Below are positions 8,301 to 52,235 of a stretch of 64,000 bases of DNA, one piece after another; position 1 is the first letter of the stretch, and each line of letters opens with the position of its first letter. Origin of the DNA: Lepiota brunneoincarnata (Eukaryota > Basidiomycota > Agaricomycetes > Agaricales > Agaricaceae); NCBI GenBank assembly GCA_023014365.1, contig JAEBUN010000031.1:186001-250000 (forward strand). The letters are read 5' to 3'. The notes beneath the pieces were generated by a model, which was not told the origin of the DNA, did no database searches, and was given only the letters and a program-made list of their open reading frames with translations. The translations under genes and the position numbers were made by a program.

Positions 8301-8949
8301 TGTTAGAGCCGGTGCGGGTCGGGACCGAAGCGGAGGGTCGGGGTGGTATCCTTGGTATAAGGTAACCGGGGGACGGGACGACGTCAGTACGTAGACAGCG
8401 GGACCGAGGCGGAGTACTTCGGGCGGAGAGTGGACTTGCGGCCTCAGCTTATGTGCTGTGCCCTCCTACTGTCCAAGTCCGTATTTCAGGAAGTCGGGGC
8501 CGAAGCGGAGCGAGGCAGAGAGAGAGGGGGATAGGGAACAGGGGACTGGTCCGCTGCTCGATTCGATTATCAGACTGAGGAGTACAAGCCAAGTACCTAC
8601 GGTATATATACTACTGGCCTTATGAACTATGACTCGTACTGACTACGTGCGGAGTGAAGCGGAGACCCATATGGTTACAAACGGATTACAAACGAAATGG
8701 AGACCGGTACGGGTATGGAGACTGGTAACGTATCTTGACTACGGACGGGAAATGGAGACGGGGAAATAGAGACAGCGAGGTTCAGGTGACCACGGCACGT
8801 GTGGAGGTGGTCGCGTGATCAGGGCAGTGGGTTGCGGTCGGAGTGAGTCGGGGCCGAGTCGGAGGGCAGAGGGTTGTTGTGTGGAACACATGTGGAGTCG
8901 AGAAGCCGAAGTTTAAGTGATTAGACTTATAGTTGGCATGGATATGACA
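8301..8949 (-). repeat. CV1 copy 1 3' LTR
   Basis: 649 bp, TG..CA ends in element sense. Contains a TATA box (TATATA) and, about 32 nt downstream in sense, the self-primer TCAGTCTGATAAT. The U3 part differs from CV1 copy 2 much more than the R/U5 part does. Confidence 0.95.
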
Positions 8950-9024
8950 GTGCCCCCCCTTTAGGGCCGAGCCTCGAGGCCCTAGGCGGTCCAGACCGGG
9001 TCCATCGGAAGACATCCGCCCGAG

Positions 9025-9031
9025 TATAAAA
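9025..9031 (+). promoter_or_regulatory. Antisense TATA box for CV1 accessory gene
   Basis: TATAAAA 57 bp upstream of the accessory ATG (9082), between the PPT and the gene and therefore outside the LTR. Copy 2 has an equivalent TATAAAA 60 bp upstream of its ATG, although the surrounding bases have diverged. Confidence 0.6.
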
Positions 9032-9081
9032 ACCGGCGAACTGGTTCGGTCCGGAAATACACAACTTGACCTCCTACCACC

Positions 9082-10158
9082 ATGAGCAGCCAATCGTCTC
9101 GACAACCAACCGCGGCGGAGCGCAAGGCGCAGTTACTGAGGGAAAAGGCGGAGCAGGAGGAGCGGATGCGGCTGGAGATCGAGAGGTTGGAAGAGGAGGA
9201 ACGGCGAGAGGAGGAACGGCGATTGGCGGTAGAGCGCCAAGAGGAAGAACGGCGACGGATGATTGAACTGCATCAACGGCAAGCGGAGGAGCGGGCAAGG
9301 GAGCGACGGGCGGAAGAGATCAGGCGACAGCAAGAGGAAGCTGCTGAGGACGAACGTCGGGCGATCCGGGCCCGACTCGTCGCGATGACTACGACGGCTT
9401 CATCCAGCCGCCTGCCGGAGCAGCCTATGGAAGTCGACCATGAAGAGTCCGACCCGAATTACACGGGCGATGACGCGGCGAGGGACGAAGAGGAGGAGGA
9501 CTCCGAAGGTTCGGAGGTAAAGGGAAAGGGAAAAGGAAAGGCGAGGGCGGCCCCGCGGCGGGGCAACAAACACGTATTCGGAGGCGATAACCCGTGCTGG
9601 AGATGTCAGCGGGATGAGGTCCGGTGCGAGATTGCCGGCGGGTAAGTAAATACAAGAGTTTCTACGATGATAATTGCTGACAAAGGCCCCAGCAACACTA
9701 GGAGTTGCCGACGGTGTAGCAAAATGAAGAAACGTTGCGGGGGTCAAGAAGAGACGGAGCCGAGCGGAGCCGGAGGTTTGTCGGGCCAGCAATTCGAAGG
9801 TGAGTAAGGAATCCTGTATTATGATGGATGCCAATTGATGGACCTTGTAGAGTTGAAACGGCTCATCGAAGAAAGGCACCAGGAGACCGTCAAGAAAATC
9901 TACATCCTGGAGGTGCGAATTGAGCGGTCCATCGCTCGGTTGGGGGAAAAGGTCGACAAGATGGGGTCGCTTGCTGGCCGCTACGAGCAACTACGGCGTT
10001 GGGAGGCTCAGGTGGACGGAAATTGGTCGAGTGGAAATTTTTTGGAGACGGAGGGTTCGGAGGGGGGTGTCGGGCCCGCTTCGGAGGAGGAGGTGCAGGA
10101 TTTGATGGAAGAAGTGAATGGGTCGCCCGGGCTCTCTGGAGACGACACCGATAGGTAG
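9082..10158 (+). CDS. CV1 antisense accessory gene: coiled coil plus split Zn2Cys6 (324 aa, 3 exons)
   Basis: Transcribed opposite to gag-pol, between pol and the 3' LTR. Exons 9082-9641, 9693-9799, 9851-10158; both introns are 51 nt, the first with branch TGCTGAC. Residues 9-105 form a highly charged Glu/Arg coiled coil; 115-160 are acidic then Lys/Gly-rich (KGKGKGKARAAPRRG, an NLS-like stretch). Cys172, 175, 182 lie in exon 1 and Cys192, 195, 202 in exon 2, giving CX2CX6CX9CX2CX6C, a Zn2Cys6 pattern whose halves are split by intron 1. Exon 3 encodes a second coiled coil (LKRLIEERHQETVKKIYILE) and an acidic tail. Likely a nuclear DNA-binding protein; whether it serves the element (targeting, transcription, copy control) or was captured from the host is inference. 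The cluster could instead be two separate CX2CX6C units. Confidence 0.78.
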
Positions 10159-10228
10159 TTGTACGGGGTTGTTTTTTTTGGTTTGTTTAATACATGGTTG
10201 TTTCTTGGTGCGATGTGTGGTCAGTAAC

Positions 10229-13200
10229 TCAAAGTGAGTGAAGAGGACCAGGCTTTGCAGGGTAAGAGGAATGAAAAGCCTCTACGAGATCTATAGCATG
10301 TTCAAGCTCGGTGGCTGGCAACCACGAGGACTCTTCTTCAGTGTCTTCGTAACCTAACCAGATGACTTTATAGAGGAGCTTGCACGCGCGGCGCCGATCG
10401 ATCTTAGAGTCGACGATGCGGGCAATCTCGTATTCTGGTTCACCGTAAATGGAAACCGGCGCGGGCGGCGGATCCGATCGGGCGGGTATGGTGTTAGGTG
10501 TGGCTGGTTCGAGCATGGAAACATGGAAGACTGGGTGTACTCCACGCATGGAGTCGGGAAGTCGGAGTGTAAGGGAGTGAGTACCTGCTTGTGCAATGAT
10601 CTCATAAGGCCCAAGGTACTTTTCGGAGAGTTTTTTGGAGGGACGGGTGGTGCGGAAGAATTGGGCTTTCACGAATACCTTTTGCCCAACCTTGAAGTCC
10701 GGGGCGGGGAGTCGGCGGGCGTCGGTGGAGGTCTGATAACGTTGCTGGGCTAGCGCTATTTCGGACTTCAAGGTGGTGTGTAGGTCGTCGAGGTCAACAG
10801 CAAAATGGCGGGCCCGAGCGGAGGCGAGATCGCGTTCAGGATGAACTGTGATGTTCAGATGGTATCCTTTATTAGCGAAGAACGGGGAGATACCGGTGGT
10901 GGCACTAGGAGCGTTGTTGTAAGCGAACTCGGCTAGTGGTAGTAATTCGGACCAATTGTCCTGTTGGTAGTTACAGTAGACCCGAAGATATTGTTCGAGG
11001 GTCTGGTTGGTGCGTTCCGTCTGTCCGTCGCCTTCTGGATGGTAGCCCGAAGTGAAATGTAACTTCATATCGAGGGCTTGTCCCAATGAGCGGAAGAAGT
11101 GGGAGACGAATTCGGAGCCGCGGTCGGAGGTAACATGTTCGGGTACGCCGTGCTTGGAGAAGACGTGGAGGACGAATAGGCGGGCGAGGTCGGAGGAGGT
11201 GACGGTATCATAAGTCGGGATGAAGAGGGATTGCTTGGTGAGTCTGTCAACGATTACTAGGATGGCGTTGTAGCCGGAGGAGGCGGGGAGTTTTTCGATG
11301 AAGTCCATGGAGATTGAATTCCAAGGGCGTTCGGGAATGGGGAGTTGTTTGAGGAGACCGTAGGGACGGTGGCGCTGGGGTTTAGACCTCATACAGGTGA
11401 CACAAGACTTACAGAAATCCTTGACGAAGGTGCGGACACTAGGCCAGGTGTATTCGCGCCGGATGAGTTCTAGCGTTTTGTTCTGACCGAAGTGTCCGGC
11501 TAGGACATGATCATGCTTGTACTGGAGGACCCGAAGTCGGAGATTGTCGGCGTCAGGGACGTAGATTCTGTCGTCTAGTAGAAGGAAACCTTTATCATTA
11601 ACTGACCAACGGCCTTCTGGGCTAGCAAGGTGGGCGGAAGCGGTCGGATCCGCTGGTAGGGCGGCGAGGATATCGCGGTGTAGCTGGTCGAGATCCATAA
11701 CTACAGCTGCGCGAAGGGAAGGGGCGTAAAGAGTGGTGGCACGGACGGAGGCCGCGAGTTGTTCATGAGTGAACACAGGCCGGAAGTTGTGCGGGTTGAC
11801 CGATTCATAGTCGCTATTCCCCCCTTTAGGGTAGATGTCCCATCGTCTAGTTAGGGCGTCAGGCTTGGTACCGAGGCGGCCGGGTCGGAAACGGATGACG
11901 AGGTGGAACTGGGATAGGAACTCGGACCAACGAGCTTGGCGGCGAGTGAGGATTTTGGTGGTGCAGAAGTATTCAAGGTTTTTGTGGTCGGTGACTACAT
12001 CAATAGTAAGAGGGGCACCCTCAAGATAGTGCCGCCAGATACGAAAAGCCTCGAATATCGCCAGGAGTTCCTTGTCGTGGGTGTCATAATTAAGTTCGGC
12101 CGTGTTAAAGGTGCGGGAATGGAATGCAACGGGGTGAACCTCCCCATCGTCGGTGACGATAGAGAGGATTGCCGCAAGGGCGTAGTCGGAGGCGTCGGTC
12201 TCGACAATGATCTGAGCGTCGGGGACCCAAGGAGTGAGGACGGGGGCGGAGATAAATGCTTCCTTCAGGGAGTTAAAGGCCTCGCGACAACCATCAGTAA
12301 AATTCCACTTCACGTCTTTGCGGGTGAGGCGAGTGAGCGGAACGACGATGTCGGAGTATCCGTGAATGAAGCGACGGTAGAAATTGGCGAAGCCTAAGAA
12401 GGACTGGATGTCCTTGACTTTCTTAGGCTCAGGCCACTCCTGGATGGTCTTGACTTTAGATTGGTCCATTCGGAGGCCGTCGGGGGAGAGAATGTAGCCG
12501 AGATATTCCACTGTGTCAGAGTGGAACTGGCATTTGTCAGGGCGGGCGTATAGACCGTGTTGGCGGAGCCGCTTGAGAACCTCCTTGACTTGGTCACGAT
12601 GGATACCATGGTTGTCGGAGTATATCAGAATGTCGTCAAGGTAGATAGTAACGCAGACGTCGAGCATGTCCTTGAATATATCGTTCATGAACCGCTGGAA
12701 GGTGGCGGGGGCATTGGTGAGGCCGAAAGGCATAACCATCCATTCGAAGGAGCCGTAGCGGGTCCGAAAGGCGGTCTTCCATTTGTCGCCGTCAGCAACG
12801 CGGACAAGATGGTAGGCGTGGCGGAGGTCGATCTTGGTATATACGCGAGCTTTGCGAGGGGAGTCTAAGAGGTCGGAGATGAGCGGAAGGGGATAGCGGT
12901 CCTTCTTGGTGATACGGTTGAGACCTCTAAAATCAACGCATAAGCGGAGGGAGCCGTCCTTTTTCTTGACGAAGAGGACCGGGGCTCCATGAGGGGAAGT
13001 GGAGGGACGGATGAAACCAATAGATAAATGTTCGTCAATAAAATCACGTAGAGCTCCAAGCTCCGATTGTGAAAGAGAGTAAATGGTACCGACCGGAGGC
13101 TGACCGCCATCCTCTAGGTTAATCTGGAGGTCGTAAGGGCGGTGTGGAGCAAGTGTGTCAGCACGCGATTTACTGAAAACGTCAGCGAACTCGTGGTATT

Positions 13201-14032
13201 CCTCGGGGATAGACGAGAGGTCAGGCGGTTCCTCGGAGACAGAAGAAGACGCGGCCGATGCGGAGGCGGCGGAAAGATTGATTCGGAATTGTTGGGAGCC
13301 AGGGAGCTTGGCAGCGCGGATAAAGGCAGGAGCGTTTATCAAGGAGATGTGCGGTTTCGCAAGGGGGACAGATTGGGACGAGGTCCCGGACAGGGGTGGT
13401 GAACCTAGGTCAGGAGAGTCAGGGGCGGCCATAGGCGGAGCCGATGCGGGTGCGACGCAGGTAGAGACGGAAGCAGGATTCTCGAGTAGGGATGGCCGGA
13501 AAGTAATACTGCCCAAAGCCCAGTCAATCAACGGATTGTAGCGGGTGAGCCAGTTGTGTCCTAAGACCACAGAACAGGAAGAGTCGAGCCGGGTGACATA
13601 AGTGTCCAAAATGATAGATTCACCGGAGGGGAAAGATACAGGCAGTTGCGCAAGCTCCGTAATGTAGGCATTTGAGGTCCCATCAAATAACCGAAGTTCA
13701 ATAGCCGGAATGGACAAGGTTGGAATACTATGAGAACGAACAAAAGATGAGTCCACAAAACAGTGAGTAGAACCACTATCAACAAGGGCTTTGAAAGGAG
13801 AAAGAGAAGAGAAATCAGAACTAACTACATTGTCCGTTGTAGAAATCGGGTCCGAAGCGGAGAGTACGGAAGCGGAGACAGAAGATACAGAAGTAATTAA
13901 AGGAGAAGTTAATGTGATATGAAAGGAGTTCGGGTCGGAAAGAGCGGACGCATTGAGACGGAAACTCTCTGGAGCACAGCAGAGTTCAATGCGATCCTCA
14001 GTCTGTGCAGAGGCCTGAGGACCGCCGACTAT
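10229..14032 (-). CDS. pol: CV1 copy 1 pol polyprotein (PR-RT-RH-IN-chromodomain)
   Basis: 1,267-codon frame opening at the gag stop in the -1 frame and closing at 10229; there is no early ATG, so a Gag-Pol frameshift is expected. In order: aspartic protease (ALVDSGSTHCF, about residue 85), RT (LCVDFRGLNRITKKDRYPLP; catalytic YLDD near 465), RNase H (VETDASDYALAAIL), integrase with an HHCC zinc domain (CKSCVTC) and DDE core (SMDFIEKLP near 909, TSDRGSEF, Glu in GDGQTERTNQTLEQ), then a C-terminal chromodomain (EPEYEIARIVDSKID..YKVIWLGYED..SSWLPATEL, about 1198-1255). The chromodomain defines a chromovirus and in that family directs integration to modified histones. No disabling change is visible. 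Confidence 0.95.
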   Translation of the reverse strand: MVGGPQASAQTEDRIELCCAPESFRLNASALSDPNSFHITLTSPLITSVSSVSASVLSASDPISTTDNVVSSDFSSLSPFKALVDSGSTHCFVDSSFVRSHSIPTLSIPAIELRLFDGTSNAYITELAQLPVSFPSGESIILDTYVTRLDSSCSVVLGHNWLTRYNPLIDWALGSITFRPSLLENPASVSTCVAPASAPPMAAPDSPDLGSPPLSGTSSQSVPLAKPHISLINAPAFIRAAKLPGSQQFRINLSAASASAASSSVSEEPPDLSSIPEEYHEFADVFSKSRADTLAPHRPYDLQINLEDGGQPPVGTIYSLSQSELGALRDFIDEHLSIGFIRPSTSPHGAPVLFVKKKDGSLRLCVDFRGLNRITKKDRYPLPLISDLLDSPRKARVYTKIDLRHAYHLVRVADGDKWKTAFRTRYGSFEWMVMPFGLTNAPATFQRFMNDIFKDMLDVCVTIYLDDILIYSDNHGIHRDQVKEVLKRLRQHGLYARPDKCQFHSDTVEYLGYILSPDGLRMDQSKVKTIQEWPEPKKVKDIQSFLGFANFYRRFIHGYSDIVVPLTRLTRKDVKWNFTDGCREAFNSLKEAFISAPVLTPWVPDAQIIVETDASDYALAAILSIVTDDGEVHPVAFHSRTFNTAELNYDTHDKELLAIFEAFRIWRHYLEGAPLTIDVVTDHKNLEYFCTTKILTRRQARWSEFLSQFHLVIRFRPGRLGTKPDALTRRWDIYPKGGNSDYESVNPHNFRPVFTHEQLAASVRATTLYAPSLRAAVVMDLDQLHRDILAALPADPTASAHLASPEGRWSVNDKGFLLLDDRIYVPDADNLRLRVLQYKHDHVLAGHFGQNKTLELIRREYTWPSVRTFVKDFCKSCVTCMRSKPQRHRPYGLLKQLPIPERPWNSISMDFIEKLPASSGYNAILVIVDRLTKQSLFIPTYDTVTSSDLARLFVLHVFSKHGVPEHVTSDRGSEFVSHFFRSLGQALDMKLHFTSGYHPEGDGQTERTNQTLEQYLRVYCNYQQDNWSELLPLAEFAYNNAPSATTGISPFFANKGYHLNITVHPERDLASARARHFAVDLDDLHTTLKSEIALAQQRYQTSTDARRLPAPDFKVGQKVFVKAQFFRTTRPSKKLSEKYLGPYEIIAQAGTHSLTLRLPDSMRGVHPVFHVSMLEPATPNTIPARSDPPPAPVSIYGEPEYEIARIVDSKIDRRRACKLLYKVIWLGYEDTEEESSWLPATELEHAIDLVEAFHSSYPAKPGPLHSL

Positions 14033-15429
14033 TTTTCCGAGCTCAGGAGAGCCGGCGCGTCTGTCTCGGAAATCTGAGCCTGTCGGCCTTTAGCCTTGGC
14101 GTCAGGGAATTTCTTCTTGTCGCAGTTGGCAGCCCTGTGATTGGGATCTGCGCAGACAAGGCAGAGGTTATTGTCGAAACGTCGTTGACGTTCCTCGGGG
14201 GTTAATTTACCGTCCTTACCAAGTTTACTAGTAAGGTCGGACTTTGGCGGGGCCGATTTCTGACCGGCGGACAGGTTGGGCGGATTGCCCTTGAGGCTGG
14301 TGTTGGGCGTGCTGCCTCTGTTATTATTGGCAGGCTTGGTGGCAGGTTGCGGGTTGGTCGAGGTGGAAGGGGATGGGTTACCTCCAGGTTTCCTAGAGGC
14401 GGTCGGGTCCGAAACGGATTTGGCGCGGGCCTTCTCGCGTTGGCGTTCCCAGTAGCGAGCGTCGATCTTCATCGCTGCTGCTCGCATTTCGATGAAGGTG
14501 TCGGGCTTGCCGTCGGGCCGATTGGACAGAATGTCCTGGATGCGGTCGGGGAGGCCTTTGTAGTAGCGGTGACAGAATACTTCGTCACCCCAGCGGAGTT
14601 GGCCAGCTAGACGAAGGAAATCGACGTTGTAGACGGCGATCTTCTCGTCGTAGCGCATTCGGAGGGAGTCGAGCTGCTCAGCAGCTTCTCCGGTTGGATC
14701 CGCGGGACCGAAATTGGTCTGCAGTTCCAGGGTGAACTGGTCCCAGTCCTCGATCCAGTTGTGCATTATTCTGTGGTTGTCAGCCTTGTCAAGGCCGATT
14801 TCAAAGTGTTGCTGGGCCATGCCCGTAAGGTACGTCAATGCGAAGTTGACCTTGGTGGCGGGGATAGCGAACTGGGCCGGGTTAGTACGGAAATAGAGCC
14901 GACATTGGAAGAGGAAGGGTTTGAGTTTGGCGGGGTCGGAACCTGTAAAGATGTCAGGTTCGCGAGCTTTGGTACGGGGAGATCGAGGAGGCTGTGGGGC
15001 TTGAGAGTTCCCACGGCCGTCCATTTGGTCGGCTATGCGTTGGAAAACTCGGAGTATGAGTCTATCATGGTTGTCTCGGGTGTTGCCAGGTGGGATGTTG
15101 TTGTTGTTGTCGCCGTTGTCTGATGGTTCGTCGTCGCCCGGGGGCCCGTCCCCATTGTCAGGGTAGTCATCGGGATCACCAGGGTCGCTGGGATCAGGAT
15201 TGGGGTCGGGGCCGTCGTCGGGGCCGTCGGGAGTCCGGAATACTGAAGGTTGTATATCTTCAGAGAAACGGTCTGGGGTCGAGGGTGCGATCGATTGTTG
15301 GTGAGAGCGAGAAGCCCTCGGGGAGTCGGGTTGCAGTTCCTCGGAAGGAGGTTGTCGAGTGATGCGTTTGCTACGGCGAGCGGCTGGAGTTACCAGAGTG
15401 CGAGTACGGGTAACTGTTCGAGAGACCAT
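14029..15429 (-). CDS. gag: CV1 copy 1 gag (466 aa)
   Basis: Starts MVSRTVTRTRT about 50 bp inside the 5' LTR. N-terminal 140 residues are basic then Asp/Pro/Asn-rich; about 150-330 match the retrotransposon Gag capsid family (FLFQCRLYFRTNPAQF.., LDSLRMRYDEKIAVYNVDFLRLAGQLRW). After a Pro/Ser/Asn linker comes one zinc knuckle, CLVCADPNHRAANC (CX2CX4HX4C). Role: virus-like particle formation and RNA packaging in the cytoplasm. The reading frame ends GAA AAA TAG at the proposed frameshift site. Confidence 0.94.
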   Translation of the reverse strand: MVSRTVTRTRTLVTPAARRSKRITRQPPSEELQPDSPRASRSHQQSIAPSTPDRFSEDIQPSVFRTPDGPDDGPDPNPDPSDPGDPDDYPDNGDGPPGDDEPSDNGDNNNNIPPGNTRDNHDRLILRVFQRIADQMDGRGNSQAPQPPRSPRTKAREPDIFTGSDPAKLKPFLFQCRLYFRTNPAQFAIPATKVNFALTYLTGMAQQHFEIGLDKADNHRIMHNWIEDWDQFTLELQTNFGPADPTGEAAEQLDSLRMRYDEKIAVYNVDFLRLAGQLRWGDEVFCHRYYKGLPDRIQDILSNRPDGKPDTFIEMRAAAMKIDARYWERQREKARAKSVSDPTASRKPGGNPSPSTSTNPQPATKPANNNRGSTPNTSLKGNPPNLSAGQKSAPPKSDLTSKLGKDGKLTPEERQRRFDNNLCLVCADPNHRAANCDKKKFPDAKAKGRQAQISETDAPALLSSEK

Positions 15430-15469
15430 GGTTAGAAAAATTCAGAGTGTGGTGGACAGGAGGAGTTTG

Positions 15470-15480
15470 AGTCTGATAAT
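15470..15480 (-). other. CV1 copy 1 self-primer binding site
   Basis: Two bases after the 5' LTR (element sense) comes ATTATCAGACT, the exact reverse complement of 11 bases in the LTR (AGTCTGATAAT, plus-strand 15748-15758). It replaces a tRNA-type PBS: no sequence starting TGG is present here. Confidence 0.65.
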
Positions 15481-15482
15481 AC

Positions 15483-16131
15483 TGTTAGAGCCGGTGCGGG
15501 TCGGGACCGAAGCGGAGGGTCGGGGTGGTATCCTTGGTATAAGGTAACCGGGGGACGGGACGACGTCAGTACGTAGACAGCGGGACCGAGGCGGAGTACT
15601 TCGGGCGGAGAGTGGACTTGCGGCCTCAGCTTATGTGCTGTGCCCTCCTACTGTCCGAGTCCGTATTTCAGGAAGTCGGGGCCGAAGCGGAGCGAGGCAG
15701 AGAGAGAGGGGGATAGAGAACAGGGGACTGGTCCGCTGCTCGATTCGATTATCAGACTGAGGAGTACAAGCCAAGTACCTACGGTATATATACTACTGGC
15801 CTTACGAACTATGACTCGTACTGACTACGTGCGGAGTGAAGCGGAGACCCATATGGTTACAAACGGATTACAAACGAAATGGAGACCGGTACGGGTATGG
15901 AGACTGGTAACGTATCTTGACTACGGACGGGAAATGGAGACGGGGAAATAGAGACAGCGAGGTTCAGGTGACCACGGCACGTGTGGAGGTGGTCGCGTGA
16001 TCAGGGCAGTGGGTTGCGGTCGGAGTGAGTCGGGGCCGAGTCAGAGGGCAGAGGGTTGTTGTGTGGAACACACGTGGAGTCGAGAAGCCGAAGTTTAAGT
16101 GATTAGACTTATAGTTGGCATGGATATGACA
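15483..16131 (-). repeat. CV1 copy 1 5' LTR
   Basis: 649 bp, 99.2% identical to its partner at 8301-8949. It carries the sense promoter (TATATA) and the self-primer strand at 15748-15760. TSD ATCAG follows at 16132. Confidence 0.95.
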
Positions 16132-29222: not shown

Positions 29223-31002
29223 ATAGGAACCATGCAGGACCGGTAAAGGAGGTGCTTCTGGTCAGGAAGCAGCCCTTGGGTTGAATTACCAAGCATCCCC
29301 ATCGCACCGACCGTGGAGAACGCCTTGGTAGAATAGTAACACACATGCTCATGGAAAGTAAGAGTATGGTCGAAATAGAAACCCAAGTACTACCAAAATG
29401 GCTTAGGCCTCAAAGAGGTATCCCCTGTATATGGATGGATGCCCAAGTCAATGGGTGGGTTGGCATCCCTCAGGTTATGAGAGAAATGAAAGACCTCAGA
29501 CTTGGTATGCTCAAGCATGAGGCCAAAGGAGTCAAAGAGCCCATGTACACAGTGGTAAGCTACCTGTAAGGCAGAAACATTGTCCTCTCAGGTCTTGGAT
29601 TGGACTATGAGGGTCCCATCATCGACATACAAAAGCATGTCAATGCCGAGGCCAGGGGTCCTCTGGTAGTAAAGATACACCAGGGGGGCTAGGTATAAGG
29701 CTGACAAGACCAGAGACAGAGCCGAGCCCTGCCCTATGCCCACATCTGCCTGCCTGGGGTCCGACCGGAAGGAATTCCACAAGTAGGTGGTAGTGTTGAG
29801 GGAGGAGAATAAAGGAGTGTGGGAAACACAAAAAGAGTAAGAGAATAGAGGATGATAAAAGGATATAGAGGAGGGAGTATTAGAAGAAGGAGACTCAGAC
29901 ACTGATACGGACACAAAAGAAGGGAATGTCCTGTTAGATTGGAGAGGAGGAAGCCTCCTTATATATGTACAGGACACAAGACAACTACCAAAAGAGGGAT
30001 AAATGAGTTACCAAAAGAAGAACAAAGGTATTACTAAAATGGGAACAAAGAGATTACCAAAAAGGGAACAAAGAGAGATAATCTAATCAAGGGAGTGGAT
30101 AAGATAAGATAAGAGATGATGGGGGGGGATAAGATAAGATAAGGTATAGCTGGACAAAACCTAACAGGTAGACCTCCCAATCAGGTAGGAGCTGAAGAAT
30201 CGCACCAGCTCTGGTGCAAACCCTAACTGTGAAAGTACTGCAAGAATCATATCATGATTCAGCAAAGGAAAGAACTGAGCAATGTTGAAAGCGACAACGC
30301 TCGTCCATAGCTCCCAAGCCTATCCTGCATGAATGAGATGGGTGAGGATCAACCCAGCGTCCTCAGTAAGCTTCTGGCGGATACCACCAACCTGGTTGGG
30401 ATGAAACACCCCCCACTTGACACAGTCAAACTGGAGGCAGTTGGAGATTATCTTCTCCATAAGCTTATCCAGCGTGTTCAACAACACAATTGGCTGAAAA
30501 GCCTTGGGCATAGAGTAAGAGGGCTTTCCCAGTTTAGGTATGACCACTGAGTTAGAATCCTTGAAATAATCTGGCCAATGTCCTGCCACCAGGCAGGCAT
30601 TGGTGAGATTGATGAACATGCAGCAGGATGCTTGGTCCGCTACAATATCCTTCAGGTATGACCATATAATGTGGTCAGGCCCAGGAGCAGACTTCTTTGC
30701 ACAAGAAGACAATATGTCCTCAAGCTCCAAGGTCGAGAATGGGTACCATGCCCTCTCTGCTTGTGCAGGGAGAGTGTCCAACATAGAGGAATCCACAGCG
30801 TGGCTAGAGGCCATGTTGTAGGTCCTGTGGAGGGCATCCCAAAGGGAGCCCATGTCATGACATGGCACACTATTGTGCTGGATCACACCATACACGGGGA
30901 GCTTGCGCTGTTTAACCCAGGCCATGAGGTCCCAGGAGCACTTGTTCGCAGAAGCAATCTCCTCAATCTTCTCATCAAAGAATTTGTGCTTGACAGTCTT
31001 AA
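29223..31002 (-). pseudogene. LINE-A4 ORF2 remnant, RT part
   Basis: Readable RT segments: RPIVLLN-type motif as QPIVLLNTLDKLMEKI, HPNQVGGIRQKLTEDAG, GIGQGSALSLVLSALYLAP, and YVDDGTLIVQ, so the aspartate pair survives. Interrupted by a 373-bp solo LTR at 29794-30166 and by stops and frameshifts. Upstream it reads HKFFDEKIEEIASANK.., the linker following the endonuclease. Non-functional. Confidence 0.82.
29794..30166 (-). repeat. Solo LTR, 373-bp family, copy 2
   Basis: Same length and sequence family as 17916-18288, in reverse orientation, with intact TGTTAGG..CTCAACA ends and a perfect 5-bp TSD GGTAG (29789-29793, 30167-30171). Equal length of both copies and clean TSDs support solo LTRs, not fragments. 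Confidence 0.92.
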
Positions 31003-31700
31003 TGTTATGAACAGTCCAGACCGGGAGGAACAAGAACTATTGTTCGACTTTACAAGATGGGTACAGGAGACTACAGACCAATTACGGGCACAAGAATACG
31101 AAGACGAGGAAGGGGAATACTACACCGCCATGCAGGACCTGGCGAGAGAAGCAGGAATGGAGATAACCTTAGAGGATATATTGGAATACCCCGAGGACGA
31201 GGAAGGTAACCATGGATCAACCGACCCAACCTCCGATACGGATGGAAGCACCGAGAGAATGGAGAGCGAGAACGGAGAGGACTCCATGGAGATACAATCG
31301 GGAGAAGGAGATTATGAGTCAGAGGAAAGCGATGGAACATCGCACAGCAGTAGCGAGAGTACTGACTCATTGTAATATAAATAACACTAGGATGCCATCA
31401 GCCAGGATGTGCATCACGGTCAGGACTGCGCACGACCAGTAGAACAGCCAAGTAACCTATAACGAGTATATAGCACCTCATAGGTATATAAGGCCTGTAC
31501 AAGTAGAGATTAAAGCCTTAAGCTTTAATCTTGTTAACAGCGGTCGTTTACCTCTCTGCCTTAACTTGGCGTCTTCCCTCGTTATCTCATTGAGCGCGAT
31601 CCACTAAGCTCTATAAGACCAACCGTCTCGGACACCTTGTAGAGTGATTGAAGGCCATCTCCAGTTATCCTCGGATACAGAAGGAGCACGGATCATAACA
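31003..31700 (+). repeat. CV2 5' LTR
   Basis: 698 bp. Its first 370 bases contain the same open acidic reading frame as the end of ORF3b (MNSPDREEQE.. to SSSESTDSL, stop near 31375), here without its upstream part. Promoter TATATAA at 31485-31491. The self-primer strand AAGCTTTAATCT is at 31520-31531 and can also fold with AGATTAAAG at 31507-31515. Confidence 0.95.
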
Positions 31701-32627
31701 TTAGATTAAAGCTTCCTTTGGACAACCTCCATCGTACACCCCGTGGTATCGGTATGCCTTGTCGCTACCCTTCCACACCGGCAGACGATACGCTTTATCG
31801 CTATCTGAGTGCCAACCGTATCTGACGACACGCCTTGTCGCTGTCCGGTGATACACCCCCATAGAGCAGGCCACCATACCCTCTGCACCCTTGGTCAGAC
31901 GCACCGAAAGCGTTGATAGGTCATCCACACCTTTAAGTATTGATTGGGATAACGCACCCGTAAGCGTTGTATACAGGTCATCCGCACCTTCAAGCGTCGA
32001 TTGGGATAACGCACCCGCAAGCATTGTTTATTCACCCTCACCTTCACCTTCGACTTCTTCCCTCTTTACCCTGTCTACAAACCGAAACGACCCCCTTGCC
32101 ACCGACTACGAAGAATCCAACAGTTCTGACTGGTCGACAACCGACTCCGAACCCGACTTCACACCCCCTCCACCACGGACCCTAAAAAGAAAACAAAACC
32201 TATACCCCTCACTCGTTCACCCTCTGGTTCCGCACCGTACCCTACACAACCCACCGAGAGAGTTCAACGTCGAACAGAAGACCCAGGATACCCAGCACCC
32301 CCAGCATCAGTTCTTCAATCCCTACCTAAACAACCACCACCTGAAAGAACTGCCACCTCTACCCGCTCAAAGCTCGGGGAGCCGATTCATAGAACATCTA
32401 CCCCATCCTCCGGTCCTCAACCCTCAACAAGTACAAGACCTAGCGACAACACTTCGCAACAGAAACCCCCAAGAACATTCTCACCCCTCACATCACCACT
32501 TGGATCACCGGTACACTCACCGCCTCGATCCAGTTCCCCTGTACAATCCGAACCATCCGAAGTTAGCCCCACTACCGGGTCTATTCACACTTCCGACGAG
32601 GAATCCACAACCTCTGACATTGACAAT
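31701..32627 (+). other. CV2 leader and gag upstream region with self-primer PBS
   Basis: PBS: AGATTAAAGCTT at 31703-31714, two bases after the LTR, complementary to 31520-31531. At about 31915-32035 two similar units of about 66 bp each encode SIDWDNAPVSVVY-like and SVDWDNAPASIVY-like peptides. Frame 1 is open from 31891 with a plausible protein start region, while the gag frame is open only from 32130; an old indel may have split a longer Gag N-terminus. No ATG joins the two. Confidence 0.5.
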
Positions 32628-33752
32628 ATGGCCTCCTTCGCAAAAATTAACACACCCCCAACCTTTAATGGAGAGACCGACTACTTCCGCCTCTGGAAGG
32701 ATGCAGTACAACTATACATCGATGCAAAGCCAGGAGCCTTTTCCGATGACAAGACCAAGATACAATTCGCCCTTTCATACATGTCCACCGGCCCCGCCGC
32801 AACATGGAGAGGAGCATTCTTGGAATCAAACAAAGAACTTGATGGAAGCCAGACCCTTCCGACATGGAAGAAATTTCTCGAAGGACTCGATACATCCTTC
32901 GCCCCAAACAATGTCCCCGCCGATGCAATGGACAGAATCCGCCACCTCAAACAGAATGGACGATATATCGATGATTACATATCCCAGTTCCAGATACTTG
33001 CCTATCAGGCCGACCTTGGAGATGGAGTGGCGGCGGTCAACTATTTCAAGAACGGGCTGGATCGCCCCGTCGCAATCAAGACAATTAGCCTCAATCCAGG
33101 AAACAAACTCAGCGACTGGTTCAAGCAAGCTCGAACAGCATATCAAATACTACAAACTCAACGCGACTATATGCAAACTTGAGGAACTCCCTCATTTCCA
33201 ACGACTTCGCGCACTCGCCCATTTAAAGGGAAAAGAAATGCTTTTATGCGCCGTGTCCCACTGCCCTATCAAGCAACAGACCCTAACGCAATGGATATTG
33301 ACCAACTCGCCGAAGCAGTCTACAACCTCGACTTTGAGGACGAGCCAGATCTATTCGCCGAGGAAGCTGATGAAGACGAGGAGACCGAAGAAGACAGACT
33401 CCACCAGTTGGTACAAGAACGCACCCGCGAAGCCCTCAATGCAATCCTCACGGACGCCCAAAGAAAGGATCTCAGAGAAAAGAGATGCTTCAACTGCCGC
33501 AAAACTGGACACTTCGCCCGCGAATGCCCCACCAAGAAGACAATATATCGCCGACCCGAATTACCCCGCAATTTGGATGCCAGAAACCGGTCAAATGCGA
33601 TATCTAGAAGAAGACAAGCAAGCTACAGGAAAAAGAACTCGCTATACAACATACTAGAAGATGCAACCGACGAAGAAGTCGAGGACATCTACGAACATTT
33701 TGCAAATGAATCCAACCACCCAGATGCCCCTCTGGTTAAGGATTTTGCCTAA
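32628..33752 (+). pseudogene. gag: CV2 gag with one in-frame stop
   Basis: ATG 32628 (MASFAKINTPPTFNGE). The first 184 residues match the retrotransposon Gag family (YFRLWKDAVQLYIDAKPGAF.., GPAATWRGAFL.., IDDYISQFQILAYQADL). TGA at 33180-33182 then interrupts; the same frame continues through an acidic stretch and a zinc knuckle CFNCRKTGHFAREC (CX2CX4HX4C) to TAA at 33752. The stop sits in ACT TGA GGA and would be a CGA codon before a single CpG to TpG change, matching the decay seen elsewhere. Frame 0 is open upstream to 32130 without an ATG, so Gag may originally have been longer. Confidence 0.85.
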
Positions 33753-33780
33753 GGAGACTAGCCACCACGTCTAGCCCTCC
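33740..33780 (+). promoter_or_regulatory. CV2 candidate -1 frameshift signal
   Basis: Heptamer GGATTTT (33740-33746) in gag frame as G GAT TTT, then GCC TAA, then a potential two-part stem: GGAG (33753-33756) with CTCC (33777-33780) and CTAG (33758-33761) with CTAG (33771-33774). Pol is open in the -1 frame from exactly 33740. Confidence 0.6.
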
Positions 33781-36700
33781 ACAAAGACCTCCTTCCCTCT
33801 CCTATTCACAAAATGATATTAATGTTGTAAAGTTGCAGGAATCGTCAGCACGCGTAATACATCTACCCTGTCGAATCCGAAAACACAAGTTCACTAAGGA
33901 AGGACCCGAAAGCGTGGAACTACTCGCCCTACTCGACTCAGGAGCAGCAGGAAACTTCATTGACCCCGGAATGGTCAAACAACATTCATTCAAAACAACA
34001 CCCCTCGATCGACCCATCAAAGTACGAAATGCCGATGGATCTGTTAACAAAAATGGAACAGCCACCCACTACACGACCCTCAACCTAACGGTTAACGGGA
34101 AGAATATGGAGATCAAACCAAAAGTAGTCTCCCTCGGAAGCCCAAGACTCATCCTTGGATTCCCTTGGCTTGCAGAACACAACCCAGACATCGACTGGGA
34201 TGCCAAACAACTACGCTGGAGAAACGAACGTTGGGACAACACTATATTCCGAGAACTCATCCAATCCATGGAACCCGATTGGATCTACAACGACCAACTC
34301 AACCACATCTCCACACTAGAGCCCACAAGCTTCGAAGAAATCAACTTCAAAGCCTCCGCATCACAATTCCTCGCCGTACAACACGGAGAAAAGAAAAACG
34401 ACGACCCAAGAAAAGTCGTACCCACGGAATTCCACGAATACCTCCCAGTATTTAGCAAGAAACAAGCCGAACGATTCCCCCCACAACGACCATGGGATCA
34501 CAAAATTGAACTCAAGGAATCATTCAAACCAATTGCCATGAAGTCCTACCGACTCTCCCTCAATGAAGAAAAGGAACTCGACACGTTCCTAGAAGAAAAC
34601 CTTCAAAAGGGATACATTCAACCATCCGAATCGCCAATGGCATCACCCTTCTTCTTTGTAGGAAAGAAAGACGGAAAACTACGCCCCTGTCAAGACTACA
34701 GGTACCTCAACGAGCATACCGTCAAAAATGCATACAACCTCCCCCTCATCTCTCATATTCTCGACAAACTTCGAGGATCAAAGTACTTTACCAAACTTGA
34801 CGTACGAGCAGGATACAACAACATCCGCATACGCAAAGGAGATGAATGGAAAGGAGCCTTCAGGACACCCCGAGGATTATTCGAACCTACGGTTATGTTC
34901 TTTGGAATGTGTAACTCCCCAGCAACATTCCAAACCATGATGGACTCATTATTCCGAAAACTCATCGACAATGGAGGAGTAATCGTTTACATGGACGACA
35001 TCCTCATTCACGCAAAAACAAAACAAGAACTTCGACGCCTCACAAGAGAAGTACTCAAGATACTCAAGGACAACGATCTATACCTCAAAACCGAGAAATG
35101 CGAATTCGAACGACAACGACTCGAATATCTAGGAGTTATTATCACTCCCGACTCAGTTTCGATGGACCCAGCAAAGCTCAAAGGCATCGCTGAATGGCCA
35201 ACACCAACTACCCCGCGCGACGTACGAAAATTCATAGGATTTTGCAACTTCTATCGAAAATTCATACACCAATACGCCACATGGGCAAAACCTCTCAATG
35301 CCCTAATGTCCAAAACCAAGAAATTCGAATGGACAGAAGAATGCCAGAACGCCTTTGATACTCTCAAAAGAAAATTCCAAAGCGAACCGGTATTAATGGT
35401 CCCCGACCGAGACAAACCCTTCGAAATCGAATGCGACGCATCACTATTTGCATCAGGAGCAGTCCTACTTCAACGCGACAACAATGGAGTTAAACACCCA
35501 GTCGCATACTTCTCGAAAGGATTCTCACCAGCCGAACGCAACTATCATTGCTCCGAACAGGAACTCTTCGCCATTATCCGAGCACTCAAAGAATGGCGTC
35601 ACCACATAGAAGGATCATCACACAAGACTATCGTATGGTCAGATCACGACAACCTTCGCCGCTGGAGAAAACCTGAAGACCTCAGCAGAAGACAAGCCCA
35701 ATGGATTGCCTACATGCAACGATTTGACATCGAAATCCGACACATCCCTGGAAAGAAAAATGGACCAGCAGATGCCCTTTCCAGACGACCCGATCATGAA
35801 CCCAAGACAAGAGACAACAAACAGGTCGTTGCACTCCCTGACAAATTCTTCACCTCAGAACAGCCACAACATATCCATATTATCGACGAAAATACTAAAC
35901 AGGAAATAAAAGAGCTGTGGAAGAAAAGGAAACAGACCGACATCGCCCAAGAAGATGACTCAGGACACCCACGTGTTCAAGGAAAACTATTTATACCACA
36001 AGATTTACACCTCAGACGCCGCTTACTGCAAAGAGTACACGACTCACCCACCGCAGGACACCCTGGAATCGCAGAAACAACTAGAAAACTCCAGGAATAC
36101 GCCTACTGGCCCGGGATGCGATCATTTGTCAAAAACTACGTCAAAGGATGTGGTGCTTGCCAACAATACAAGATCAATCGCCACCCCCTAAAACCACCGC
36201 TTCAACCTATCCCTGGACCCCGTTCTACCCGTCCATTCTCGAACATCTCGATAGATCTTATCACAGACCTACCCCCGGACGGACCCCATGATTCTATACT
36301 GGTCGTGGTCGACCAGCTTACGAAGGGGATAATTCTAGAACCTACTGCGAAAACTGCCAACGTGGACAAGATCGCCGAAATTCTTATCAAACGGCTATTC
36401 TCTAGATTTGGCCTTCCCGAGAAAGTTCTCAGTGATCGCGACCCCAGATTCGCCGCCAAATCCATGAAAGAATTCTACAAACAACTCGGAATCGAACAAG
36501 CACTCTCTACCGCCTACCACCCCCAGACAGACGGACAAACAGAGCAATTCAATCAAGAAATAGAACTCTACCTTGGCATCTATTGCTCATCGAACCCGAA
36601 CAAATGGGTAAAGGCACTCCCACTCCTGGAATATGTCCACAACTCGAAAACACACGCCGAACACCAACATACCCCATTTGAACTCCTCTATGGATCAAGC

Positions 36701-37408
36701 CCCAAAGGATTTCCGACCTCCGAGGAGCCAACGAACATTCCAGCAATAGGAGAGAAGTTTAAATACCTCGCCAAGATACGCCAAGAAGCCCAAGCTGCGC
36801 ATGAACAAGCCAGACTAAAAATGGCTGCAAGATATAACCGGCCAGATATCAATCTAAAAGTTGGACAGAAGGTTTGGCTTGACAACCGCAACCTCCCAAT
36901 TCAGTACGCCTCAAAGAAACTGGCCCAACGACGAGAAGGTCCCTTCACCATAACAAGAAAACTCGGACCTGTTACCTATGAACTAAAATTACCCACCAAA
37001 TGGAAGATCCACAACAAGTTTCATGCGAGCCTCCTAATGCCTGCAGAAGAGAACGACACACATGGGGAATACAACACAGCCCCACCACCTGACCTTGTAA
37101 ATGGAGAAGAAGAATACGAGGTCGAGTCAATACTGCGCCACAGAAAATTCCGGAACAAGTATCAATTCCTAGTCAGATGGAAAGGATACCTTCCCACCGA
37201 GGATTCCTGGGAGCCAGAAGCAAACCTGGAGAATGCCAAGGAAGTCATTGAAGAATATAAAAGGGCCCACAAATTAGACAACCCCACCAATGACCCAACC
37301 ACCCAACACTCGAGCAACCACTCCAGACCTCCCAGAGCCAGACAACGATGGACGCCTTCTCATCCGGGAAAGAATCATATCCCTGGCAAACCGCGTCGAA
37401 GGAAATAG
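33740..37408 (+). CDS. pol: CV2 pol polyprotein (PR-RT-RH-IN-chromodomain)
   Basis: About 1,222 codons in the -1 frame relative to gag. In order: protease (LLALLDSGAAGNFID, about residue 67), RT (CQDYRYLNEHTVKNAYNLPL; YMDD about 417), RNase H (FEIECDASLFASGAVLL), integrase with HHCC (HPGIAETTRKLQEYAYWPG..CGACQQYK) and DDE core (SIDLITDLP about 837, SDRDPRFA, Glu in QTDGQTEQFNQEIE), chromodomain (EEYEVESILRHRKFRNKY..LVRWKGYLPTEDSWEPEANL, about 1123-1180). All catalytic residues are present. The 3' end overlaps the two downstream ORFs. Confidence 0.95.
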   Translation, partial: GFCLRRLATTSSPPQRPPSLSYSQNDINVVKLQESSARVIHLPCRIRKHKFTKEGPESVELLALLDSGAAGNFIDPGMVKQHSFKTTPLDRPIKVRNADGSVNKNGTATHYTTLNLTVNGKNMEIKPKVVSLGSPRLILGFPWLAEHNPDIDWDAKQLRWRNERWDNTIFRELIQSMEPDWIYNDQLNHISTLEPTSFEEINFKASASQFLAVQHGEKKNDDPRKVVPTEFHEYLPVFSKKQAERFPPQRPWDHKIELKESFKPIAMKSYRLSLNEEKELDTFLEENLQKGYIQPSESPMASPFFFVGKKDGKLRPCQDYRYLNEHTVKNAYNLPLISHILDKLRGSKYFTKLDVRAGYNNIRIRKGDEWKGAFRTPRGLFEPTVMFFGMCNSPATFQTMMDSLFRKLIDNGGVIVYMDDILIHAKTKQELRRLTREVLKILKDNDLYLKTEKCEFERQRLEYLGVIITPDSVSMDPAKLKGIAEWPTPTTPRDVRKFIGFCNFYRKFIHQYATWAKPLNALMSKTKKFEWTEECQNAFDTLKRKFQSEPVLMVPDRDKPFEIECDASLFASGAVLLQRDNNGVKHPVAYFSKGFSPAERNYHCSEQELFAIIRALKEWRHHIEGSSHKTIVWSDHDNLRRWRKPEDLSRRQAQWIAYMQRFDIEIRHIPGKKNGPADALSRRPDHEPKTRDNKQVVALPDKFFTSEQPQHIHIIDENTKQEIKELWKKRKQTDIAQEDDSGHPRVQGKLFIPQDLHLRRRLLQRVHDSPTAGHPGIAETTRKLQEYAYWPGMRSFVKNYVKGCGACQQYKINRHPLKPPLQPIPGPRSTRPFSNISIDLITDLPPDGPHDSILVVVDQLTKGIILEPTAKTANVDKIAEILIKRLFSRFGLPEKVLSDRDPRFAAKSMKEFYKQLGIEQALSTAYHPQTDGQTEQFNQEIELYLGIYCSSNPNKWVKALPLLEYVHNSKTHAEHQHTPFELLYGSSPKGFPTSEEPTNIPAIGEKFKYLAKIRQEAQAAHEQARLKMAARYNRPDINLKVGQKVWLDNRNLPIQYASKKLAQRREGPFTITRKLGPVTYELKLPTKWKIHNKFHASLLMPAEENDTHGEYNTAPPPDLVNGEEEYEVESILRHRKFRNKYQFLVRWKGYLPTEDSWEPEANLENAKEVIEEYKRAHKLDNPTNDPTTQHSSNHSRPPRARQRWTPSHPGKNHIPGKPRRRK

Positions 37409-38504
37409 CCAACCTAACCCTGCCACCAATACCGCTGACGACCAACCAGACAGGACCAACAGTCCTTATATCATCCGGCATACCTTCCTTCCCTCCAACC
37501 AACCCGAGATACGATCCATCCTTTTACACGAAGTTCCCTTTCATATTACCGGAACCCGTCTTAAACGCAGTCCAGCGATGGTACCCCTGGTCGACACCTG
37601 CTGGAAGACATTTACTGCTCTTCTGTATCACAAGCGCCTCGTCCACGACCGAGCAACAGAATTCGAAGAACTATGCGCCACTATTCTTTCTAGCGCAACA
37701 GAGGAACAGGACCGCAATACCATTTCTGCCATGCTATCAACCGCTCTCACCGAATTCCCGTTCAAGAGTCCGATCCCAAGCCCGAGCAATGGAAGCAGAA
37801 GTCAGGACCGCCCTATCCTACCTATCGGGACCACCACCCAACCTTCCAACCCTCCCATGGTGGATACGAGTAACCAACCATCAAGTGTTGTACAAGCTAT
37901 ATCTGCTTCTAATGACGCCCCCATCAGGACTACCACCACTCACTTATCCACCACCCGAACTCGCTGCAATTGCTGCCGTCGATTCGGCCATATCAAAGCA
38001 GGATGCCCGCGCTACCAATGTCGATATTGTCGAAAGATTGCCCCAGGCCATTACGAGAAGCACTGCGAGAGAAACCCTTACCAGCATCAACCCGCAAGTA
38101 TGGTACCTGGCCTGTATCGCCGCCCACGAGGAATACCAAGCAGAGCTCGATCCCTCACACGCGAAACCACAAACAACAATATTCGACACATTGCTGCAAG
38201 CACCGAGCAGCGCCCCGCTTCAGCCAGACCCCTCCGCACCCGAATTCAAAATGCCCCCGTCGTCATTCCGACCACCAACGCCACCACCACATCTGCTAGT
38301 GGAAGCCACCGACTTCCTGAATCGATCTTTCGGTGCACCCGCCACCATTCACTCCAGAGAACCCATTGTCATCGACCTCACCCAAGACCCGCCATCCCCA
38401 GACCACCAAGCTACCGAAGCGACTCCCCAGAACCCGACCCATACTTCGACTGGGACCCCATCGCCGAATCAAACATTACAGGAGAGCCTGTCGGATTATA
38501 CTGA
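37290..38504 (+). CDS. CV2 ORF3a, double zinc-knuckle protein (404 aa)
   Basis: True ATG at 37290, 119 bp before the pol stop, in the +1 frame relative to pol. The first about 150 residues look folded (DTCWKTFTALLYHKRLVHDRATEFEE split over a helical stretch); 150-220 are Ser/Thr/Pro-rich. Residues 226-259 carry two zinc knuckles: Cys226-Cys229-His234-Cys239 (CX2CX4HX4C) and Cys244-Cys247-His254-Cys259 (CX2CX6HX4C). The tail is Arg/Pro-rich and ends acidic (PEPDPYFDWDPIAESNITG). Not recognised as a known family; nucleic-acid binding is inferred from the knuckles. Overlaps ORF3b for 1,157 bp in another frame. Expression could use a subgenomic RNA or reinitiation; no signal is obvious. Confidence 0.6.
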   Translation: MTQPPNTRATTPDLPEPDNDGRLLIRERIISLANRVEGNSQPNPATNTADDQPDRTNSPYIIRHTFLPSNQPEIRSILLHEVPFHITGTRLKRSPAMVPLVDTCWKTFTALLYHKRLVHDRATEFEELCATILSSATEEQDRNTISAMLSTALTEFPFKSPIPSPSNGSRSQDRPILPIGTTTQPSNPPMVDTSNQPSSVVQAISASNDAPIRTTTTHLSTTRTRCNCCRRFGHIKAGCPRYQCRYCRKIAPGHYEKHCERNPYQHQPASMVPGLYRRPRGIPSRARSLTRETTNNNIRHIAASTEQRPASARPLRTRIQNAPVVIPTTNATTTSASGSHRLPESIFRCTRHHSLQRTHCHRPHPRPAIPRPPSYRSDSPEPDPYFDWDPIAESNITGEPVGLY

Positions 38505-46241: not shown

Positions 46242-46902
46242 TGTCATATCCACACCAAACCTAGAGCTTAACCATTAGGCTTCGGCTTCTCGACTCCACG
46301 TGTGCTCCACACGACAACCCTATGCCCTCCGACTCGGCCCCGACTGGCTCCGACCGCAACCCTTCGCCCCGATCACGCGACCTACCTCTACACGTGCCAC
46401 GATCACCTGACCCTCGGTGCTCCCATTGTCCAGTTCTCCATTCTCCGTCCGTAATCAGAATACGTTACCAGTCTCCATACCCGTACCGGTCTCCATTCCA
46501 TTCAAAATTATTCGTAATCCGCTTGTAACCATATGGGTCTCCGCTTCGCTCCGCACGTAGTCAGTACGAGTCATAATTTGTCGAGCTAGTAGTATATATA
46601 CCGTAGGCACTTGGCTTGTACTCCTCAGTCTGATAATCGAATCGAGCAGCGGACCAGTCCCCTGTTCCCTATCCCTCTCTCTCTCTGCCTCGCTCCGCTT
46701 CGGCCCCGAATTCCTGAAATACGGACTCGGACAGTAGGAGGGCACAGCACATAAGCTGAGGCCGCAAGTCCACTCTCCGCCCGAAGTACTCCGCCTCGGT
46801 CCCGCCGTCTACGTACTGACGTCGTCACATCCCCCGGTTACCTTATACCAAGGATACCACCCCGACCCTCCGCTTCGGTTCCGACCCGCACCGGCTCTAA
46901 CA
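46242..46902 (+). repeat. CV1 copy 2 5' LTR
   Basis: 661 bp, TGTCATATCC..GCTCTAACA. TATA box TATATATA at 46593-46600; self-primer TCAGTCTGATAAT at 46625-46637, about 32 nt downstream, where the transcript should begin. Confidence 0.95.
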
Positions 46903-46904
46903 GT

Positions 46905-46917
46905 ATTATCAGACTGA
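46905..46917 (+). other. CV1 copy 2 self-primer binding site
   Basis: ATTATCAGACTGA, two bases after the 5' LTR, is the exact reverse complement (13 nt) of 46625-46637 in the LTR. No tRNA-like PBS starting TGG is present. Confidence 0.68.
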
Positions 46918-46955
46918 AACTCCTCCTGTCCATTACACTCTAATCCTTTCTAACC

Positions 46956-52166: not shown

Positions 52167-52235
52167 GTTACTGACCACACATCACACCAAGAAACAACCA
52201 TGTATTAAACAAACCCAAAAAACAACCCCGTACAA

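Follow-up and report, generated by a model that had tools for sequence, protein, structure and literature searches.

CV1 carries an intron-containing gene antisense to gag-pol

The window, a 64,000-nucleotide stretch of the Lepiota brunneoincarnata genome (contig JAEBUN010000031.1, positions 186,001 to 250,000), contains an LTR retrotransposon, CV1, with the RT, RNase H, integrase, C-terminal chromodomain, LTRs and TSD that define a chromovirus. The chromodomain at the end of pol scores 30.6 bits against the Pfam profile Chromo PF00385 (cut-off 25.1). The parts of the element and its further copies in the window are:

8301-16131, minus strand: CV1 (chromovirus, family A)
8301-8949, minus strand: 3' LTR, a repeat of 15483-16131 with 5 mismatches in 649; ATCAG is duplicated in the flanks
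10229-14089, minus strand: pol (RT, RNase H, integrase, chromodomain), in a frame different from that of gag
14092-15429, minus strand: gag, an open frame (Pfam Retrotrans_gag, 2.6e-09)
15483-16131, minus strand: 5' LTR, a repeat of 8301-8949, with ATCAG on the outer flank
46242-54117, plus strand: second full-length CV1 copy (family C), in the orientation opposite to the first; exon 1 of its antisense gene is at 52749-53321, minus strand
58625-59285, plus strand: LTR-only CV1 copy

Pol relatives are found in Leucocoprinus birnbaumii (80%) and also in Pisolithus and Trametes, and other Agaricomycete genomes have pol relatives in the 60-80% range. A search for CV1 relatives by locus gave none in viral_contigs and 44 loci in genome_contigs, which were set aside as too distant (best-segment identity in pol of 28-55%). 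The element, with its ATCAG TSD, seems to be inserted in a LINE-like repeat: LINE-like frames occupy the intervals 4-8.3 kb and 16.1-31 kb, and related pieces lie at 26-28, 41-45 and 55-63 kb.

Between pol and the 3' LTR, an additional gene is read in the direction opposite to gag-pol:

9025-9032, plus strand: TATA box TATAAAAA, beginning 57 nt before the ATG
9082-10158, plus strand: antisense gene, three exons
9082-9641, plus strand: exon 1, encoding the N-terminal helix (residues 11-109), an acidic and then basic linker, and the first Cys3 half
9642-9692, plus strand: intron 1, 51 nt, GT-AG
9693-9799, plus strand: exon 2, encoding the second Cys3 half with its basic loop
9800-9850, plus strand: intron 2, 51 nt, GT-AG
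9851-10158, plus strand: exon 3, encoding the second helix (exon residues 2-59) and an acidic tail, ending in a TAG stop

An earlier note on this DNA had described an antisense ORF with two short introns and its own TATA box 57 bp upstream, and our analysis agrees on each point: the coordinates and the GT-AG borders are as described, the predicted splicing yields a frame of 324 amino acids with 0 internal stops, and TATAAAAA is found at 9025, 57 nt 5' of the ATG.

The antisense gene is kept across CV1 copies

To the 55.6-Mb genome (95 contigs) exon 1 gave at least 152 matches (150 of 212 candidates scored), and by hand count 77 of 150 among the matches listed contain no stop. We fetched and aligned 60 copies, 18 of them the closest and the others picked by hand over the range of identities, mostly from match rows with few or no stops, so that the sample is not random. 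The antisense gene is intact in 36 of these 60, a figure that describes this non-random sample and not a genome-wide rate, and in 16 of the 20 long copies. The start codon and its Kozak-like context are kept across the aligned copies, and 57 of the 60 have TATAAA (hand count of the alignment). Splice sites, frame and cysteines were counted in 58 copies, two partial ones having been dropped. GT-AG borders are found at intron 1 in 57/58 copies and at intron 2 in 56/58, and the differences in exon length are multiples of 3 in 57, 56 and 56 of the 58 copies (exons 1, 2 and 3, respectively), while intron lengths vary regardless of frame (47-71 nt for intron 1, 48-51 nt for intron 2). The exact six-cysteine spacing CX2CX6CX9CX2CX6C occurs in 54 of the 58. 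When families carrying different cassettes (see below) were compared with the window copy, the introns were 47-60% identical in most comparisons and the exons 71-93%.

Constraint was also evident at the codon level. The median dN/dS of the antisense gene is 0.22 (NG86, 28 pairs of 8 intact copies), with values by part of 0.13 for the N-terminal helix, 0.16 for the cluster, 0.19 for the second helix and 0.45 for the tail (NG86). Because the gene does not overlap pol, this constraint belongs to the antisense gene itself. The earlier note had named related elements that lack the frame, or that have random stops in it, as the observation that would count against a gene; the copies largely keep start, splice sites, frame and cysteines. 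By this pattern of conservation, the antisense ORF is a protein-coding gene of CV1 and not a chance frame, and it has the features of the aORF-3R class, namely a coding frame antisense to gag-pol, located in the interval between pol and the 3' LTR and kept across copies. Neither intron has been lost from any of the 58 copies, in line with the proposal that antisense introns can persist in a retroelement: because the gene is antisense, its introns survive passage through genomic RNA and reverse transcription.

Searches of the protein database did not return relatives of this protein. Residues 155-324 used as a query gave 603 candidates with 0 at E<=1e-3, and a six-member alignment running from about residue 96 to the end gave 0 at E<=10 among 7993 scored. 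Relatives of the element itself are represented in the database: with CV1 pol as a control query, 5713 of the 7976 scored proteins had E<=1e-3. Relatives of the antisense gene may be missed by such a search because they are spliced or distant.

The antisense gene is a mosaic of diverged cassettes

Divergence was measured between five full-length types, namely A (the window copy at 8301-16131), B (L028), C (46242-54117), D (L113) and E (L114, the gag of which is not comparable). Synonymous divergence is low in pol (dS 0.10-0.27, 10 pairs) and gag (0.11-0.36, 6 pairs), and spans 0.25-1.27 in exon 1 and 0.03-0.97 in exon 3 of the five types. Pairs that share a cassette have low values for it (A-C exon 3, 0.030; A-B exon 1, 0.273) and the same pairs have high values where the cassette is not shared (A-C exon 1, 1.27; A-B exon 3, 0.88). 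Along the element, divergence climbs beside the LTR and drops over the terminal 100-200 bp or so of pol. The same picture emerged from transversions, on which the CpG decay of old copies has no bearing, in 36 pairs of 9 copies: at four-fold sites, 34/2717 were counted in a 547-bp RT piece, 176/1794 in exon 1 and 85/929 in exon 3, so that their frequency in the antisense gene is approximately 7 times that in RT. Overall transversions amount to 0.30% in RT, 4.5% in exon 1 and 6.3% in exon 3, with the LTRs intermediate (2.6%).

At a threshold of 15%, the 58 copies fall into 4 N-terminal, 4 linker/intron-1, 2 exon-2 and 7 exon-3 types, which occur in 13 combinations; some of the small types may reflect decay. 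The distances in cassette 1 leave an empty bin at 6-7%, with 837 pairs below it and 816 above, pairs that are not independent of one another. Exon 2 is the best-conserved part of the gene and the usual point at which cassettes switch. One copy, L020, is a recombinant with an A backbone and a B-like intron 2 and exon 3; it has a deletion at the window-equivalent positions 11701-11900.

Judged from these distances, the gene is a mosaic of old, deeply diverged cassettes set on a near-uniform, homogenised gag-pol. A high regional mutation rate is disfavoured as the source of the divergence, because same-cassette pairs are no more diverged than pol (A-C exon 3, 0.030 vs 0.112; A-B exon 1, 0.273 vs 0.250). 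Long-term maintenance of alternative cassettes, and not uniformly high mutation, explains the divergence. The shuffling presumably arose by template switching, and introgression from lost families is a possible source of cassettes. The pattern suggests that diversity is selected for at this accessory locus of CV1.

The encoded protein has a Zn2Cys6-like cluster with its halves apparently reversed

The two regions described earlier as coiled coils are each predicted as a single long helix. In the AlphaFold models of the family alignments, one helix spans residues 11-109 (pLDDT 95-98 by block as far as residue 100) and the other spans exon-3 residues 2-59 (pLDDT 88-96 over the first 50 residues, then 71 over ten more); both models have a low pTM (0.42 and 0.40). 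Between the helices lie the six cysteines, in the spacing CX2CX6CX9CX2CX6C that had been noted previously. A KGKGKGK-type basic stretch had also been reported beside the cluster, and KGKGKGKARAAPRR is indeed found preceding it. Intron 1 falls exactly between the two Cys3 halves:

9595-9627, plus strand: first Cys3 half (C172, C175, C182), with a near-neutral loop; its counterpart in PF00172 is the C-terminal half
9706-9738, plus strand: second Cys3 half (C192, C195, C202), with the loop SKMKKR; its counterpart in PF00172 is the N-terminal half

The spacing lies within what we take to be the usual range of the Zn2Cys6 family. Nevertheless, the full spliced protein scores only 7.6 bits against PF00172, and five native fragments score 13.9, 14.5, 17.5, 19.4 and 21.5 bits, one of the five reaching the cut-off of 21. 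These fragments align in pieces, the best stretch being half of the profile, and none passes the curated cut-off over the whole profile. When the order of the halves was swapped, fragments from three families each aligned as a single stretch (profile positions 1-31 or 1-32), with scores of 26.4, 30.0 and 30.8 bits. The fungal Zn(II)2Cys6 factors GAL4, PPR1 and PUT3 behaved in the opposite way: their native sequences scored 47.4, 48.3 and 47.7 bits, and the swapped ones 35.0, 32.1 and 34.6 bits, split into two stretches. Both halves of the CV1 protein thus match the profile of these factors, but in reversed order, and the canonical arrangement, in which the basic DNA-contacting half comes first, is not the one found here. 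Searches against PDB sequences give weak support to the reversal. With the swapped fragment PUT3 structures came first, at an E of 0.059 that is not significant by itself, followed by two other zinc-cluster factors at 0.26 and 0.4, in six matches in all; the native 41-residue fragment retrieved no zinc-cluster protein from the PDB sequences, and a native 120-residue query retrieved two (E 2.5 and 4.3).

The domain therefore looks like a Zn2Cys6-type cluster in which the half that normally reads DNA, the basic one, is placed second. The earlier designation as a Zn2Cys6 protein holds for the six-cysteine spacing, and it needs correction in that this is not an ordinary domain, PF00172 fitting best with the halves swapped. 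Given the reversed order, the usual geometry of DNA contact cannot be assumed. The protein is also short, without the large regulatory region that is presumably usual in Zn(II)2Cys6 factors. A circularly permuted Zn2Cys6 domain was not found in the open-licence literature searched. If the cluster does fold with reversed halves, the main fungal transcription-factor domain would tolerate permutation, in this case with the junction of the halves coinciding with an intron.

CGG/CCG motifs are in excess in CV1

The usual targets of Zn2Cys6 proteins are CGG triplets (CGG/CCG half-sites). We analysed the arrangement of such triplets in CV1. In the window LTR, CCG-N3-CGG is observed 6 times (0.24 expected) and CGG-N2-CCG 4 times (0.29 expected), numbers reached in 0/400 dinucleotide shuffles each; they rank first and second among 48 two-triplet arrangements. 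The two often merge into a composite, CGG-N2-CCG-N3-CGG, as in CGGGACCGAAGCGG. In gag and pol, the same two pair motifs occur 9 and 14 times (2.25 and 2.98 expected) and the composite 4 times (0.17 expected), each with 0/1000 synonymous-codon shuffles reaching the observed number. Another arrangement, CCG-N12-CGG, is in excess in gag-pol as well (8 vs 2.22, 1/1000 synonymous-codon shuffles). The composite is found 29 times in the 16,368 bp of CV1 in the window, which comprise two full copies and one LTR homologous to one another, and 0 times in the remaining 47,632 bp. None of 16 other open stretches had an excess of the motif. In CV1 of family A, composite motifs are located at:

8320-8333, plus strand: LTR
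8399-8412, plus strand: LTR
8495-8508, plus strand: LTR
8849-8862, plus strand: LTR; the antisense TATA box follows approximately 165 bp downstream
13847-13860, plus strand: inside pol
14404-14417, plus strand: inside gag

CV1 is CGG-rich in general (49.7 vs 17.6 CGG/CCG per kb), which accounts for part of the motif count. In 4 of 8 tested upstream regions, those with fewer CpGs, the motif had no clear top rank. Genome-wide, CGGNNCCGNNNCGGAG occurs 1263 times and the pattern read backward 217 times, an excess that is only suggestive, as the control contains no CpG and the sites are not all assigned to CV1. Two further lines of support were considered and rejected. Within the LTR, motif CpGs and other CpGs are conserved to a similar degree (0.81 vs 0.74, p = 0.35), and conservation of the motif was discarded as evidence because CpGs inside and outside motifs are kept equally. 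Its presence in families C, D and E is not independent either, because their homologous LTRs are approximately 90% alike and the motif is inherited.

The CpG content of the copies themselves differs with age: observed/expected ratios are 0.29-0.58 in old CV1 copies and 1.0-1.2 in young ones. CpG loss is strong in the old copies L045, L046, L061, L064 and L065, several stops of which look like CGA to TGA changes. The decay of old copies is likely linked to methylation, and it fits methylation-type silencing. The low CpG loss of CV1 was rejected as proof of anti-silencing, since another young gypsy element in the window is similar (1.1 for CV1 vs 0.92).

Comparison with known antisense genes

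Antisense genes at the position between pol and the 3' LTR are already known, namely brtn of Boty, gene23 of Grande and that of Retand (PMC7264820, PMC11963269, PMC8365987, PMC4227169), and the available part of PMC7264820 lists such accessory genes of LTR retrotransposons as having an unknown function. The brtn gene of Boty-like elements of Botrytis and Sclerotinia is likewise an extra antisense gene of a fungal gypsy element at this position (PMC7264820, PMC8365987, PMC4227169); in contrast to the CV1 gene, the available parts of its descriptions, on which the comparison is based, mention no zinc cluster, introns or cassettes. The plant aORF-3R genes (Grande gene23, RIRE2, Retand TRP28) have the same position and orientation as the CV1 gene (PMC7264820, PMC11963269). 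As far as described in the available text, an upstream promoter of its own drives gene23 and the product is nuclear (PMC7264820), and DNA binding is predicted for TRP28 (PMC7264820, PMC11963269). Their domain is unrelated to that of CV1, and Retand is a non-chromovirus plant element; a term search for 'intron' found the word absent from PMC11963269 and PMC7264820.

HBZ of HTLV-1 and APH-2 of HTLV-2 are encoded by spliced antisense transcripts near the 3' LTR and regulate LTR activity (PMC3185765, available part), and the structure of the CV1 gene would fit an HBZ-like class. They differ from CV1 in that their transcripts start inside the 3' LTR and belong to retroviruses, not to a fungal retrotransposon; HBZ is a bZIP protein and APH-2 has no classical bZIP, neither being a zinc cluster as in CV1. 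VANC of the Arabidopsis VANDAL elements is a transposon-encoded, sequence-specific DNA binder with anti-silencing activity, whose short motif is described as concentrated in its own element (PMC5735166, available part), and in CV1 too the motif is concentrated in the element that encodes the protein. Unlike the CV1 gene, VANC is a different protein encoded by a sense gene of a DNA transposon, and its motifs are described as tandem repeats in noncoding DNA whereas those of CV1 are dispersed and also lie in coding DNA. A survey of fungal LTR elements (PMC3248453) contains neither 'antisense' nor 'zinc' by term search. A zinc-cluster gene inside a retrotransposon was not found in the open-licence literature searched. 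The reversed cluster, the cassettes and the motif look new, and an antisense gene at such a position is already known.

A candidate regulator of its own element

Considered jointly, the findings are best read as a self-directed dimeric transcription regulator acting on the LTRs of its own element, a reading that we hold tentatively and that falls a little short of probable. The transcript of the gene would start at a TATA promoter of its own, which lies just outside the 3' LTR, run opposite to gag-pol and lose two introns, and the 324-amino acid product would consist of a long N-terminal helix, a basic linker, the reversed Zn2Cys6-type cluster, a second helix and an acidic tail. Its helices would dimerise, and the dimer would bind the CGG/CCG motifs of its own LTRs and control transcription. 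Sites in the 3' LTR, where the nearest composite is the one at 8849-8862, could set the promoter of the antisense gene itself, and sites in the 5' LTR that of gag-pol. The common zinc half would hold the DNA target constant while the swappable helix cassettes decide which families' subunits pair. As to direction, an activator or anti-silencer at the level of the family seems more likely than a repressor. A DNA-binding accessory role had been predicted in the earlier note, and the zinc cluster together with the excess of CGG/CCG motifs in the element favours it. The fuller version, in which a permuted, spliced, antisense Zn2Cys6 regulator would read a composite operator and its exchangeable old cassettes would provide type-specific self-recognition (an immunity or anti-silencing system), is doubtful. 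Because the gene pairs a recognisable DNA-binding-type domain with a candidate target in one element, the question of its function can be put to the test.

The same protein could bind the same LTRs and restrain the element, as an HBZ-like repressor or a copy-number control whose cassettes correspond to phage immunity types. Discrete, old cassettes shuffled on a uniform backbone do resemble type-specific interaction classes, and HBZ, which is spliced, antisense and has a coiled-coil DNA-binding-type domain, is described as inhibiting Tax-driven LTR activity (PMC3185765, available part). However, the LTR motif types are constant across cassette types, and 152 or more matches to exon 1 in a single genome are hardly a sign of tight restraint, which makes such a brake somewhat unlikely. 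An accessory factor acting elsewhere (in nuclear import, as a partner of Gag or integrase, or in integration targeting via host chromatin), with the LTR motif unrelated to it, is unlikely: the acidic tail, basic linker and long helices would suit a scaffold or adaptor, and plant GENE23 is reported as nuclear with an unknown function in the available part of PMC7264820, but a Zn2Cys6-kind cluster and an excess of a motif of the matching type in one element would then be a coincidence.

Zn2Cys6-type proteins are a family of fungal hosts, and this, like the gene's own promoter and introns, would be expected of a host transcription factor gene carried as a passenger. The earlier suggestion of a captured host regulator turned cargo is nonetheless very improbable, because the gene is present across element families, evolves under constraint (dN/dS approximately 0.2) and recombines with the element; moreover, no host relative was retrieved from the protein database, which is incomplete for fungi. 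That the antisense RNA alone matters, by dsRNA or interference, with the frame incidental to it, is scarcely credible. Some retroelement antisense transcripts are described as regulating without coding (PMC7264820, available part), but here the introns have diverged whereas the frame, the splice sites and the cysteines are conserved, and the median dN/dS given above contradicts an incidental frame.

Other genes of the window

Another gene of the Cys6 type, with the spacing CX2CX6CX8CX2CX6C, is located at 1858-2430 on the minus strand and is probably part of a longer minus-strand gene extending to approximately 4000. It differs from the CV1 antisense gene and is also multicopy, with 136 genome matches at E<=10 and 133 at E<=1e-8, a few of which are two pieces of one place. 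Its native order scores slightly better than the swapped one on PF00172 (18.5 vs 17.1 bits). At 31000-38843 lies another gypsy element, with identical 300-bp LTR segments and an extra frame on the sense strand (37290-38504) that overlaps the end of pol and contains a CCHC-like stretch.
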